From: Kushneria sinocarnis
GTDB taxonomy: Bacteria > Pseudomonadota > Gammaproteobacteria > Pseudomonadales > Halomonadaceae
Direction of reading: 5' to 3'
DNA length: 64,000 nucleotides
Assembly: GCF_003633775.1 (NCBI RefSeq)
Contig: NZ_RBIN01000001.1
Span: 310,001-374,000 of the forward strand
A program made the translations under genes and the position numbers. Shown piece after piece: positions 58,394 through 61,355 of this stretch; the first letter of the stretch is position 1; each line of letters starts with the position of its first letter. The notes beneath the pieces are model-generated. The model saw only the letters and a program-made list of their open reading frames with translations, did no database searches and had not been told where the DNA came from.

Positions 58394-58557
58394 GGGTGAA
58401 GGCGGAATAAGCCGCAAAATCCCGTTCATTCTCTCCCATGGCGAGAGCCCGGCTCGTGCCAGGCTGTGCCCCATCGAGCGCTGTCCTGACGCATCCACCG
58501 GCTGACAGCCGGCATCCGACAACAGCGCTTTATCCGTTACGAGTCATGGAGAGAGGC

Positions 58558-60936
58558 ATGGGGGTACAGCGTTTCATCGGCATCAACGGTCGTGACGCCA
58601 TGCGCCAGGTGCGGGAGGCGATGGGCGACGACGCCCTGATTCTCTCCAACCGGCCGGTCGAGGGCGGGGTGGAGATCATCGCCATGCCGGAGCAGGAGCA
58701 CGAGCAGTCGCTGGCGCAGTTCGATTCCCCGGACTCCGCCTCCGAATCCACTGCCCCGGCGCCGGCGGTCGAACGCGCCGCCGCCACCGACGAGGTATCA
58801 ACCGCAGGTGATGCCACGCAGACCCCCGCCCCCGTGACGCCCGGTGATGACGCCGCCCTGGGCATGATGCAGGCGATGAATCGCCAGCTGCTCGACGAGA
58901 TGCGCAGCATGCTGCGCGAGCAGGGCAGCCCGGCGAAGGCGACGGGCGCCGATGCCCGCCAGCGGCTCTCGGGGGCGCTGCGCCGGCGGCTGCTCAATGC
59001 CGGGTTCAGCGCCACGCTGGTCGGTGAGCTGCTGGAAGGCGTGCCCGAGGAGCTGCTCGCACCGCCCGCCGATGAGGCGGACGAAGCCGCCACCGCCCCG
59101 CTGATGGCCTGGCTGGTGCGTCAGCTGGGCGAGCGGTTGTCGGTACTGGGCGACGAGGGCGAGCTGTTCGACGACACCGGCGTGTTCGCACTGGTCGGCC
59201 CGACCGGTGCGGGCAAGACCACTACTACTGCCAAGCTGGCCTCGCGTTACGTGATGCGCCACGGGCCGAAGGAAGCGGCGCTGGTGACCACCGACAGCTA
59301 CCGCATCGGCGCCGCCGAGCAGCTGCGCATCTACGCCCGGCTGCTCGGGGTCGAGGTGCATGCCCTCGATGCCGAGGGGGATCTCGGCGCCCTGCTGGAG
59401 CGGCTGGTGCAGCCGCGCCGGGCGCTGCTGTCACGCTCCGGCGGCAAGCGCATGATGGTGATTGACACCGTCGGCATGAGCCAGCGCGATCAGCGGCTGA
59501 TGGGCGAGATCGCCCGCCTCGGTGACTCGCCGGTACCGACCCGGCGGCTGCTGGTGCTCGATGCCGCGCGCCACGGCGATACCCTCGAGCAGATCATCGA
59601 GGCCTGGCAGCAGGCTTCCACCCGGGCCGGGGCGCCCCTGTGGGGCTGCATCCTGACCAAGCTCGACGAGGCCGTACGACTGGGCAGCGTGCTGGATGTG
59701 GTAATCCGTCACCGGCTACGGCTGTGCTATGTCTCGCGCGGGCAGCGGGTGCCCGAGGATATCGAGCCCATTGATGTTCAGGCGCTGCTGCACGAGGCGC
59801 TGTCGCTGGATCAGGCCTCGCCGTTCGCCTTTGACGAGGCCGATCTCGCCGCCCACCCCCAGGAGAGCCGGCAGCGCTCGCTGTCGCGCGATGTGCTCCG
59901 CCAGGGCAGCGCGCTGGAAGCCACCTTCGCCACCCTGCGCAGTTACAATCTCGGCATGACCCTGCTGGAGCAGGGCTGGCGCCAGGCCGATCAGGACAGC
60001 GCCGGTGGCGGCGCTTCCGGCTTCGCCCGGCTGATGGCCGCCACCACCCAGCAGACGATGCTGGCCAGCAGCGGCATGGCCCATGCACTGTGGTGGTCGA
60101 AGGAGACGCCGGTCAGCGGCGCCGATCAGGTGATGCCGCTGGTGACGCTGGATCAGCACGGCCTGCCGCAGCCGCTGGTCTGGCCGCGCCATCGGCTGCC
60201 GGTCGGGGCAGCGGAGCAGCTCGCCTGGGCCGAGCAGCTCGGTGCGCAGTGGCAGTTGCTGATGCAGCTGCCGGGCATCGGCGAGCTCGACCGGCTCGAT
60301 GGCCGTGGCTGCGCCTGGCTGGCGCCGGTCAGCGGCAGCCGGCGGGTGCTGCATGGCGGGGTGCGCCAGCCGCTGTCACAGCTGACGAGCTCGGGCGATG
60401 AGCTCGAGCCGGTGGTGGTGCGCCATCAGGGGCGGCGGGTGACGCTGCAGCTGAGTCGGCTGGATGTCACCCTGACCCAGCGCCGGGAGGAGGCGCACGG
60501 TCTGCCGGTCACCGCCTGGTATGGCGAGCTGCGTGATCCCGACGACGGCCGTCGGCTGGCGAAACGCTACTGGCTGGGAACCAGCCGGGCCGGGCGCGAT
60601 GCCGTGACCCGGATCAAGTGCTCGCTGACGCTGGAACAGCTGCCGGTGCTGACCCGTCAGGCGTGGCAGGCGCTGGAGGCGCGCGGCATGGCCCGCACCG
60701 ATCGCGAGCAGCGCTGGCAGCTGGCGGCGGCGCTGGCAGCGCTGGCGCTGCGACTGGCGGTCGAGGAAGCGGAGTGGGCCATGGATGTGCGGGCCCGGTT
60801 GTCGCGAGTGGCGCAGCGGCGCTGCGGACGACGGCCGAAGGCCCTGCTCGAGGGGCTGCTGGACGCGCTCAACGCCCGCGAGGCACTCAGCCGTGCCGGC
60901 GCCATGCAGCCGGTGACCGCGGCGGACCCGGCATGA
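58558..60936 (+). CDS. flhF: FlhF-like SRP-type GTPase with long C-terminal extension
   Basis: 792-residue protein. The N-terminal B-domain start VQRFIGINGRDAMRQVREAM and DDALILSNRPVEGGVEI is typical of FlhF, which places the flagellum. An acidic/proline linker follows (residues 45-130), then the NG domain: G1 VGPTGAGKTTTTAKLA (about 213-227), TTDSYRIGAAEQLRIYA, VIDTVGMSQRD and LTKLDEAVRLGS (to about 420). The remaining ~370 residues have no recognised domain; ordinary FlhF ends near 400-500. ATG 58558 has GGAGAG upstream. It overlaps an FlhG-like gene but no other flagellar gene is in the window. Confidence 0.85.
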   Translation: MGVQRFIGINGRDAMRQVREAMGDDALILSNRPVEGGVEIIAMPEQEHEQSLAQFDSPDSASESTAPAPAVERAAATDEVSTAGDATQTPAPVTPGDDAALGMMQAMNRQLLDEMRSMLREQGSPAKATGADARQRLSGALRRRLLNAGFSATLVGELLEGVPEELLAPPADEADEAATAPLMAWLVRQLGERLSVLGDEGELFDDTGVFALVGPTGAGKTTTTAKLASRYVMRHGPKEAALVTTDSYRIGAAEQLRIYARLLGVEVHALDAEGDLGALLERLVQPRRALLSRSGGKRMMVIDTVGMSQRDQRLMGEIARLGDSPVPTRRLLVLDAARHGDTLEQIIEAWQQASTRAGAPLWGCILTKLDEAVRLGSVLDVVIRHRLRLCYVSRGQRVPEDIEPIDVQALLHEALSLDQASPFAFDEADLAAHPQESRQRSLSRDVLRQGSALEATFATLRSYNLGMTLLEQGWRQADQDSAGGGASGFARLMAATTQQTMLASSGMAHALWWSKETPVSGADQVMPLVTLDQHGLPQPLVWPRHRLPVGAAEQLAWAEQLGAQWQLLMQLPGIGELDRLDGRGCAWLAPVSGSRRVLHGGVRQPLSQLTSSGDELEPVVVRHQGRRVTLQLSRLDVTLTQRREEAHGLPVTAWYGELRDPDDGRRLAKRYWLGTSRAGRDAVTRIKCSLTLEQLPVLTRQAWQALEARGMARTDREQRWQLAAALAALALRLAVEEAEWAMDVRARLSRVAQRRCGRRPKALLEGLLDALNAREALSRAGAMQPVTAADPA

Positions 60937-61355
60937 GCGATCAGGCGGCAGGACTGCGTGCCTGGCATCAGCGGCAGCATGCGGCAGTATCGGCAACGCC
61001 GCTGCTGGTGCTGGGCGCACCGGCGGATGATGAACTCGAGCGGGCACTGGCCGCGCTGCCGAGTCCCGGAGGCCGGGGCTGGCGCCCGGTGACGCCAGCG
61101 GCCGCAGCGGACCTGGCGGCCGTCCGCCACCGGCTGCTGTGGTTCGATGTCGTGCACTCCGAGGTGGCCGAGGTCTATCGTGCCCTCAAGCGCCTCGCCG
61201 CAGCCGAGCCGGGCCTGCCGGTACTGCTGCTGGTCAGTGCCGAGCCCGACCCCGTCACGGCACAGGTGCTGGATAACCTGATGACGACTGCCCGGCATTT
61301 TCTGGGGCTGACCCTGATGCGTGAGCCGCAGCGCTGGCTGACCCCGCGACGCTGA
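60933..61355 (+). CDS. FlhG-like protein lacking the MinD ATPase motifs
   Basis: 140-residue protein whose start overlaps the flhF stop (ATGA), the place normally held by flhG/fleN. Residues 3-9 are DQAAGLR, an exact DQAxxLR motif, the FlhG segment that activates the FlhF GTPase. No KGGVGKT or other P-loop exists. The second half (SEVAEVYRALKRLAAAEPG, VLLLVSAEPD, TARHFLGLTL) loosely resembles the C-terminal third of FlhG. It looks like a reduced FlhG that keeps the activator helix but cannot bind ATP. The FlhG relation is an inference from motif, position and this weak resemblance. Confidence 0.7.
   Translation: MSDQAAGLRAWHQRQHAAVSATPLLVLGAPADDELERALAALPSPGGRGWRPVTPAAAADLAAVRHRLLWFDVVHSEVAEVYRALKRLAAAEPGLPVLLLVSAEPDPVTAQVLDNLMTTARHFLGLTLMREPQRWLTPRR

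Follow-up and report, generated by a model that had tools for sequence, protein, structure and literature searches.

The stretch of Kushneria sinocarnis (Halomonadaceae) DNA analyzed here, a window of 64,000 nucleotides, carries a long flhF gene and, directly after it, a small gene whose product we call mini-FlhG (Table 1). The two genes share four nucleotides, an ATGA that holds the mini-FlhG start codon and belongs to the flhF stop. The protein opens MSDQAAGLRAWHQ. A preliminary description of this DNA had reported a 140-residue ORF at this place, with a DQAxxLR motif near its N-terminus and without the KGGVGKT motif. The ORF and its motif are present as described, and no P-loop pattern, including the deviant Walker A form KGGxGK, occurs in the window protein or in any of 44 distinct mini-FlhG members. 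Mini-FlhG matches no known family above cut-off in Pfam, NCBIfam or PDB-sequence searches, and we found no prior description of it in the literature searched. AlphaFold predicts a helix followed by a small alpha/beta domain (pLDDT 86.9 for the whole model), and the model has only a helix of 5 residues after the last core strand.

Table 1. Features of the flhF and mini-FlhG locus, in window coordinates.
Feature	Coordinates	Strand	Basis
long flhF	58438..60936	+	832 aa from first start; TIGR03499 207.4 bits vs cut-off 174.15
FlhF GTPase domain, SRP54-type (residues 249-454)	59182..59799	+	Pfam PF00448, E=3.5e-34
FlhF C-terminal extension, predicted Tn5/IS4-transposase-like fold	59899..60933	+	AlphaFold2 pLDDT 90.6, pTM 0.90; Foldseek
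mini-FlhG ORF	60933..61355	+	140 aa, ATG start, stop included; homologues found
DQAAGLR codons (residues 3-9), FlhF-activating enhancer-helix motif	60939..60959	+	DQAxGLR in 44/44 distinct family members
N-terminal helix, predicted (residues 4-19)	60942..60989	+	AlphaFold2, pLDDT about 62 (low confidence)
small alpha/beta core, predicted, without P-loop (residues 22-140)	60996..61352	+	AlphaFold2; mean pLDDT 81-97 in blocks from residue 21 on
segment of residues 66-131	61128..61325	+	hhalign to last beta-alpha-beta-alpha-beta of FlhG core

Since the TIGR03499 match begins only at residue 41, flhF probably starts at 58546 or 58558 and not at the first start, 58438. Among 45 long FlhF proteins, the GTPase elements G1 and DTxG...D are found in all 45 and TKxDE in 44; strict patterns for two other FlhF elements fail in part (38/45 and 36/45).

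Within a set of 58 relatives, a mini-FlhG homologue bearing the motif lies directly downstream of long flhF in 23 of the 24 genomes that have a long FlhF, and a mini-FlhG member follows long FlhF at 29 of 29 named loci. The preliminary reading would have been refuted had no such homologues stood beside flhF in related genomes. The two sets overlap and together provide 44 distinct proteins, in which DQAxGLR is invariant. Its six fixed codons are spelled as 36 different DNA words among the 44 genes, which argues that selection acts on the peptide. The count of 44 partly reflects ORF choice, because the motif served as a selection criterion at the 29 named loci and at four others; at L054, L055, L059 and L063 the longest downstream ORF is not mini-FlhG, and the second-longest, motif-bearing ORF was taken by hand. 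Independent of this selection, a motif-bearing ORF lies beside every long flhF but one. The background of DQAxxLR among ORFs of at least 110 residues in the loci is 82 of 2622, made up of 52 mini-FlhG, 26 FlhG and 4 that are neither. Conservation across the 44 distinct proteins rules out a chance motif.

Mini-FlhG proteins range from 136 to 296 residues, with a mean column identity of 24%. Full-length FlhG carries a C-terminal membrane-targeting helix. In 30 aligned mini-FlhG members the tail after the last core strand is 3-22 residues long and thus leaves no room for such a helix, a judgment made without an amphipathicity calculation.

The mini-FlhG profile matches 187 of 275 genomes of the family, made up of 184 of the 210 FlhC-positive genomes and 3 of the 65 FlhC-negative ones. 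One genome (G575) carries mini-FlhG although the profile search missed it, the match in another (G931) lacks the N-terminal part, and the gene of a third (G579) looks frameshifted. Three genomes, all of one genus, have a long FlhF and no profile match, and their loci, when read, contain no motif-bearing ORF of at least 90 residues; the pairing is therefore not obligatory everywhere. A scan of named genomes and a survey of the order show that the pair also exists outside the family. The order survey yielded motif-bearing ORFs at L219, L220 and L221; at L222, L223 and L224 none passed the filter, and these loci are not counted as motif-bearing. Viral contigs were searched with one relative, and of 13 stretches that matched a pattern none was confirmed.

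A genome search for a separate full-length flhG, proposed in the preliminary description, found none in K. sinocarnis with MinD and FlhG profiles, so that neither of the two refuting conditions named there was fulfilled. The MinD profile returns MinD at 364.8 bits and three weaker matches of 60, 46 and 29 bits; the FlhG profile returns three of the same places, the strongest (75.6 bits) being the MinD gene itself. FlhG profile scores do not exceed 86 bits in any of 37 family genomes, where again no separate full-length FlhG was found by profile; of 21 genomes from elsewhere in the order, 15 score 140-528 bits. Mini-FlhG is a family-wide replacement, not a peculiarity of one genome. In salt-loving, Halomonas-like bacteria, mini-FlhG, together with an enlarged FlhF, appears to have taken over from the usual ATP-driven control of flagellum number, with no more of FlhG left than the GTPase-activating tip and the last stretch of its fold.

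After removal of the motif, the mini-FlhG core still aligns by hhalign to FlhG (P=1.4e-4, score 36.3, probability 52.6%), over the C-terminal part only, at the last beta-alpha-beta-alpha-beta. The weak likeness to the end of FlhG that had been suggested for the C-terminal half is thus reproduced without help from the motif. The top score in 150 column shuffles, a lenient null, is 18.9. FlhG ranks first among 59 other profiles, some of which are shadow ORFs, and the next (named CheZ by Pfam) reaches P=4.7e-3 over 24 columns; a small, four-sequence MinD profile does not match (score 13.2, P=0.43). The order of elements in the aligned segment is the same in the predicted mini-FlhG model and in FlhG. 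On these profile comparisons, the end of FlhG is a closer match to the core than any other family tested.

Conceivably, mini-FlhG instead goes back to a small alpha/beta protein of other descent, with a receiver-like or other Rossmann-like domain, which gained the DQAxGLR helix by fusion and activates FlhF without being a reduced FlhG. The middling hhalign probability leaves room for such an origin, as do the structure searches. Foldseek returns nothing below E=0.001 for the core (best 9e-3); the FlhG structures come at ranks 15 (4rz3) and 30 (4rz2) and one chain of 8p53, the FleQ-FleN complex, at rank 42, all without significance, and GTPases, receiver domains, flavodoxins and BipA are listed beside them. 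Pfam matches to FleQ, HAD and a docking domain all stay below threshold; the receiver/FleQ N-terminal domain (PF06490) scores 17 bits against a gathering score of 22, and it appears at E<=1 in 2 of 23 members. We nevertheless regard a fusion as unlikely, given the lead of FlhG over CheZ and all other profiles, the shared order of elements, and a gene that occupies the flhG slot in a family where no FlhG was found.

Our data favor, with fairly good confidence, a mini-FlhG that activates the FlhF GTPase on its own and without ATP and that is most likely a drastically reduced FlhG; the GTPase stimulation itself is inferred. In this reading, the DQAAGLR helix at the N-terminus would insert into the homodimer of FlhF and provide Q4 as the co-catalytic glutamine. 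FlhF would then hydrolyze GTP and the dimer would fall apart, much as full-length FlhG acts elsewhere. The alpha/beta core may represent the final portion of the FlhG fold. Its task would probably be docking, perhaps to the Tn5-like C-terminal domain that FlhF has in this lineage. Lacking a P-loop and the C-terminal membrane helix, mini-FlhG is inferred to be incapable of an ATP-driven dimer and membrane cycle. A short DQAxxLR peptide, residues 1-23 of B. subtilis YlxH, suffices to stimulate FlhF in vitro; mini-FlhG, by comparison, is encoded by a gene of its own and has a small domain besides the proposed activating helix. Two papers describe DQAxxLR as the FlhF-activating motif (PMC12826062, PMC12327844), and the latter reports that a Q8A substitution within the motif of B. 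subtilis FlhG resembles flhG deletion.

Alternatively, the main role of mini-FlhG could be transcriptional, with the core binding a flagellar regulator (FlhDC here) in the manner of FleN and FleQ and the helix merely tethering the protein to FlhF. FlhG/FleN binds FlrA/FleQ elsewhere (PMC12826062), and FlhC is present in 210 of the 275 family genomes. However, 20 of the 26 FlhC-positive genomes without a mini-FlhG match are also without FlhF above the family cut-off, so mini-FlhG follows FlhF rather than FlhDC. Moreover, FlrA recognizes FlhG only as a dimer with ATP bound (PMC11236974), and this state would be impossible for mini-FlhG. We consider a primarily transcriptional role quite improbable. 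That mini-FlhG is a functionless, decaying flhG remnant retained through translational coupling with flhF is scarcely tenable: its variable length, its low conservation, its apparent absence from three genomes of a single genus that have a long FlhF and the frameshifted appearance of one relative would fit, but 44 distinct genes are open, the motif is kept at the peptide and not the DNA level, both the window and Salinicola L046 retain the pair where its neighbors are non-flagellar genes, and three Pseudomonas/Stutzerimonas genomes with a FleN of their own carry mini-FlhG next to a long FlhF as well.

As a proposed reduced activator of FlhF, mini-FlhG can be set against its better-known counterparts. 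It shares with FlhG/FleN/YlxH (a MinD-type ATPase; PDB 4rz2, 4rz3) the slot after flhF, the DQAxxLR helix present in many FlhGs and the C-terminal profile match; its size, its missing P-loop, its short tail and its long FlhF partner set it apart. A 2025 review presents flhF and flhG as consistently encoded together and FlhG as an ATPase cycling on the membrane (PMC12826062). FleN of Pseudomonas, in the same GTDB order, is likewise encoded downstream of flhF, but it keeps the ATPase and lacks DQAxxLR (PMC12713375), whereas mini-FlhG keeps DQAxxLR and lacks the ATPase. The two lineages have kept opposite halves of FlhG. FlhF-FlhG is a widespread switch for flagellar position and number in bacteria, and a natural split of the GTPase-activating helix from the ATPase would make it possible to ask directly how number and place are divided between the two halves of FlhG.

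The partner FlhF is predicted to be remodeled by a C-terminal domain with a Tn5-transposase-like fold. Foldseek matches the modeled extension to six Tn5 entries (E 1.4e-8 to 3.1e-7, TM about 0.5), the only entries below E=0.001, the next match being at 0.098. Sequence support failed: the extension reaches E=0.19 against a Tn5/IS4 transposase profile by hhalign (collinear when forced), has no match in the PDB by sequence, and yields only scattered Pfam matches, which involve at most 3 of 30 members and never a transposase family. The Tn5 claim therefore rests on the predicted fold alone. No conserved D/D/E was seen at the aligned places of the extension, in an uncertain alignment and at what we take to be the places of the Tn5 triad. 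If confirmed, the domain would mean that a motility regulator has a transposase fold built in, which would be unusual.

It is possible, though we doubt it more than we believe it, that Halomonadaceae and some other Pseudomonadales have a rewired flagellar switch, in which FlhF captured an inactive Tn5/IS4-type transposase fold by fusion and FlhG was cut down to the ATP-free activator mini-FlhG, docked on that fold. Flagellar placement would then depend on the binding partner of the transposase fold, be it nucleoid DNA or a component of the C-ring, and not on a MinD-type membrane cycle, and the two genes would form a cassette that also passed into Pseudomonas keeping FleN. The extension profile matched 3 of 369 genomes of the class, all Halomonadaceae, in a survey that scored no more than five candidates in each genome; it undersamples, because the named-genome scan and the order survey place the pair outside the family. 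The NCBIfam FlhF model NF011312 (PRK14723; 768 aa) matches the long FlhF over positions 1-740 at 432.6 bits, below its cut-off of 951, and carries merely the name 'flagellar biosynthesis regulator FlhF', whereas the C-terminal part of the window FlhF is predicted to be Tn5/IS4-transposase-like.

Mini-FlhG, the 140-residue protein encoded next to flhF in the window, is best explained as an ATP-independent FlhF activator, most likely a drastically reduced FlhG; its stimulation of the FlhF GTPase is inferred. The product opens MSDQAAGLRAWHQ, the ATG sits inside the flhF stop (an ATGA overlap), and a pattern search found no P-loop in its 140 residues. The preliminary description thus located and described this ORF correctly, and its statement that the ATPase P-loop is missing holds. 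The pair is surrounded by non-flagellar genes in a 3.51 Mb assembly of 18 contigs. Upstream of the pair are TmcA-like, M20 peptidase, MFS and TetR family genes; a FUSC family protein is encoded on its downstream side. At a Salinicola-like locus (L046), genes for an SLT transglycosylase and a GARS enzyme lie close to the pair, and in two loci (L058, L067) the gene order is flhB-flhA-flhF-small gene (Pfam Bac_export_2, FHIPEP).

Coordinates of the cassette, its parts and an extended homologue
Feature	Sequence	Coordinates	Strand	Size
Window in its genome (G000)	G000:C1	310001-374000		
flhF/mini-FlhG pair	window	58438-61355		
FlhF C-terminal extension	window	59899-60933		345 residues
mini-FlhG ORF	window	60933-61355	+	140 residues
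mini-FlhG with long linker	L065	7563-8450		296 aa

FlhF was searched in 58 genomes, and the gene 3' of flhF was read in 36 of these. A long FlhF (726-873 aa), which carries a C-terminal extension, occurs in 24 genomes, every one in the Halomonadaceae, and is followed immediately by a short DQAxGLR protein (136-296 aa) in 23 of them; FlhE (Pfam) occupies the slot in the single exception, G016. In six other Halomonadaceae genomes FlhF is short (422-468 aa) and the next gene encodes a sigma-70-family protein, by position FliA, with neither an FlhG match nor mini-FlhG in the loci read (L069-L073, L075). Six genomes outside the family encode an FlhF of 426-554 aa and then FlhG with a P-loop. A scan of named genomes gave 29 loci with the FlhF extension, all 29 with a motif-bearing ORF directly 3', in Salinicola, Kushneria, Halomonas, Modicisalibacter, Litchfieldella, Onishia and Franzmannia, and also in Pseudomonas linyingensis, P. 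sagittaria and Stutzerimonas stutzeri K1. A lack of homologues beside flhF in relatives would have refuted the preliminary description; they are present there. The two sets overlap; without duplicates they comprise 44 small proteins and 45 long FlhFs. A mini-FlhG profile matches 187 of 275 Halomonadaceae genomes at E<=0.01. At the tighter threshold of E<=1e-5 it matches 21 of 390 genomes across the order; six of these do not belong to the Halomonadaceae, and three of the six yielded motif-bearing ORFs. Mini-FlhG reaches the cut-off of no family in Pfam or NCBIfam, and a sequence search of solved structures returned only two matches, at E about 0.9.

The occurrence of mini-FlhG follows that of FlhF. 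The profile matches 184 of 210 FlhC-positive Halomonadaceae genomes versus 3 of 65 FlhC-negative ones (Fisher value 1.4e-36, kinship of genomes ignored). Twenty-six FlhC-positive genomes gave no match, and 20 of these have no FlhF above its family cut-off. Among the other six, the profile missed a mini protein that is present (G575), FlhF reaches the contig end (G478) or is short (G540), and in three genomes of one genus (G016, G532, G533; L068, L192, L269, L270) the long FlhF is divergent and no mini-FlhG was found. Among FlhC-negative genomes with a match, G503 has FlhF; no FlhF above cut-off was found in G523, which is 77% complete, or in G590, whose match (E=0.0085) is probably due to chance. 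Protein distances of mini-FlhG and FlhF correlate (r=0.79, 44 pairs), which shared ancestry alone could produce. Other Kushneria lie further from both window proteins than Salinicola does, a placement that suggests transfer or retention as a unit and hence that the two genes move together.

In a first alignment of 23 proteins, D3, Q4, A5, G7, L8 and R9 are invariant against a mean column identity of 24%. DQAxGLR is present in all 44 distinct mini proteins, and its six fixed codons have 36 different DNA spellings, evidence of selection on the motif. This tally was not made blind, because the named-scan ORFs and those of four of the relatives' loci were chosen partly by motif. A motif-bearing ORF was on offer at every long-FlhF locus of both sets save G016. 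The glutamine of the FlhG helix is a co-catalytic residue for FlhF (PMC12826062), and Bacillus subtilis Q8A has a phenotype like an flhG deletion (PMC12327844). The linker between motif and core varies greatly in length across the family; in the L065 protein it is long and rich in proline, alanine and glutamate.

The origin of the core was addressed by profile comparison, which the preliminary description had proposed. With the motif and the next four residues removed, the core aligned to a profile built from 54 FlhG loci (P=1.4e-4, score 36.3), although with a probability of only 52.6%; residues 66-131 pair with the part of FlhG that surrounds DAYALIK and RFLDV. None of 150 column shuffles scored above 18.9; for the reversed profile the score was 16.3. 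Shuffled columns are a lenient null, and 61 profiles from ORFs of the same loci were therefore also compared. Two of these are the mini family; among the other 59, FlhG came first (34.5, P=3.1e-4), followed by CheZ (Pfam-named; 26.3 over 24 columns). This control is of limited strength because some profiles are shadow ORFs. A small MinD profile scored 13.2, and six-FlhG comparisons gave P=0.011 and 0.0037 with the register unchanged. An AlphaFold2 model from 30 sequences (pLDDT 86.9) predicts a helix at residues 4-19 (pLDDT about 62) and then a five-strand alpha/beta core, whose last beta-alpha-beta-alpha-beta coincides with the FlhG-aligned segment. Foldseek found nothing below E=0.001 for this core; FlhG structures 4rz3 and 4rz2 and a 268-residue FleQ-FleN chain (8p53) ranked 15, 30 and 42, not significantly, alongside BipA, receiver domains and flavodoxins. 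Given the profile alignment, the predicted topology and these non-significant ranks, descent from FlhG is likely but not proven.

A separate full-length FlhG elsewhere in the genome would have undercut the preliminary description. A profile of six FlhG sequences (A2) scored 140-528 bits in 15 of 21 genomes of the order outside the Halomonadaceae (at least 399 in 12) and at most 86 bits across 37 Halomonadaceae genomes, and this search found no full-length FlhG in the window genome or the others of these 37. The window genome's match is its MinD gene (364.8 bits against TIGR01968); those of the other family members are taken as MinD from score, with no second search. When 274 genomes from across the class were sampled, 145 showed an FlhG-profile match at E<=1e-30. 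By a loose pattern, a DQA-like helix is present in 28 of 54 inspected FlhG loci, two of which are the same gene, and absent from all six A2 sequences, in agreement with the Pseudomonas FleN without DQAxxLR described in PMC12713375. P. linyingensis, P. sagittaria and S. stutzeri K1 (L143, L144, L145) have a FleN-like match (289-321 bits) elsewhere in the genome, and the cassette is therefore an addition there.

The partner FlhF keeps most of its GTPase elements and is unusual in its C-terminal extension. The window protein scores 207.4 bits against TIGR03499 (cut-off 174.15), with an SRP54-type GTPase domain at residues 249-454. Among the 45 long FlhFs, G1 and DTxG...D are kept in all, with 36 retaining the latter when the pattern is made stricter; TKxDE is present in 44, and a strict second element in 38. 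The extension of the window FlhF, modelled by AlphaFold2 with pLDDT 90.6 and pTM 0.90, matched six PDB chains below E=0.001 in Foldseek, all of them entries for Tn5 transposase or the Tn5 inhibitor (E 1.4e-8 to 3.1e-7, TM about 0.5; next match 0.098). A viral library gave no significant match to this fold, the top one being an IS4-family transposase (E=0.032). By sequence, the extension had no PDB match and no transposase in Pfam; a Tn5 profile gave no confirmation (E=0.19), with collinearity once the threshold was lowered, and, within this uncertain alignment, no conserved D/D/E was seen at the places aligned to Tn5. We read the extension, on its predicted fold only, as a catalytically dead Tn5/IS4-like domain.

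In the literature on FlhF/FlhG, Halomonas, Halomonadaceae, Chromohalobacter and transposase fusion, as far as its text was available, we found no account of such a protein; most subscription papers and all preprints lay outside this scope. The accessible text on H. bluephagenesis mentions flhF and names no flhG (PMC10185862).

FlhG, as described in PMC12826062, is an ATP-dependent dimer with a C-terminal membrane sequence, and its helix triggers GTP hydrolysis and dimer dissociation of FlhF. Unlike FlhG, mini-FlhG keeps the helix without the ATP site or room for a membrane sequence. Most economically, it would be a constitutive FlhF activator, its local supply set by co-translation with FlhF plus docking, perhaps on the Tn5-like domain. 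Several Halomonadaceae species are described with peritrichous or lateral flagella, one of them with one polar flagellum or peritrichous flagella (PMC10690426). By inference, these patterns would fit an arrangement in which a polar membrane cycle has become dispensable.
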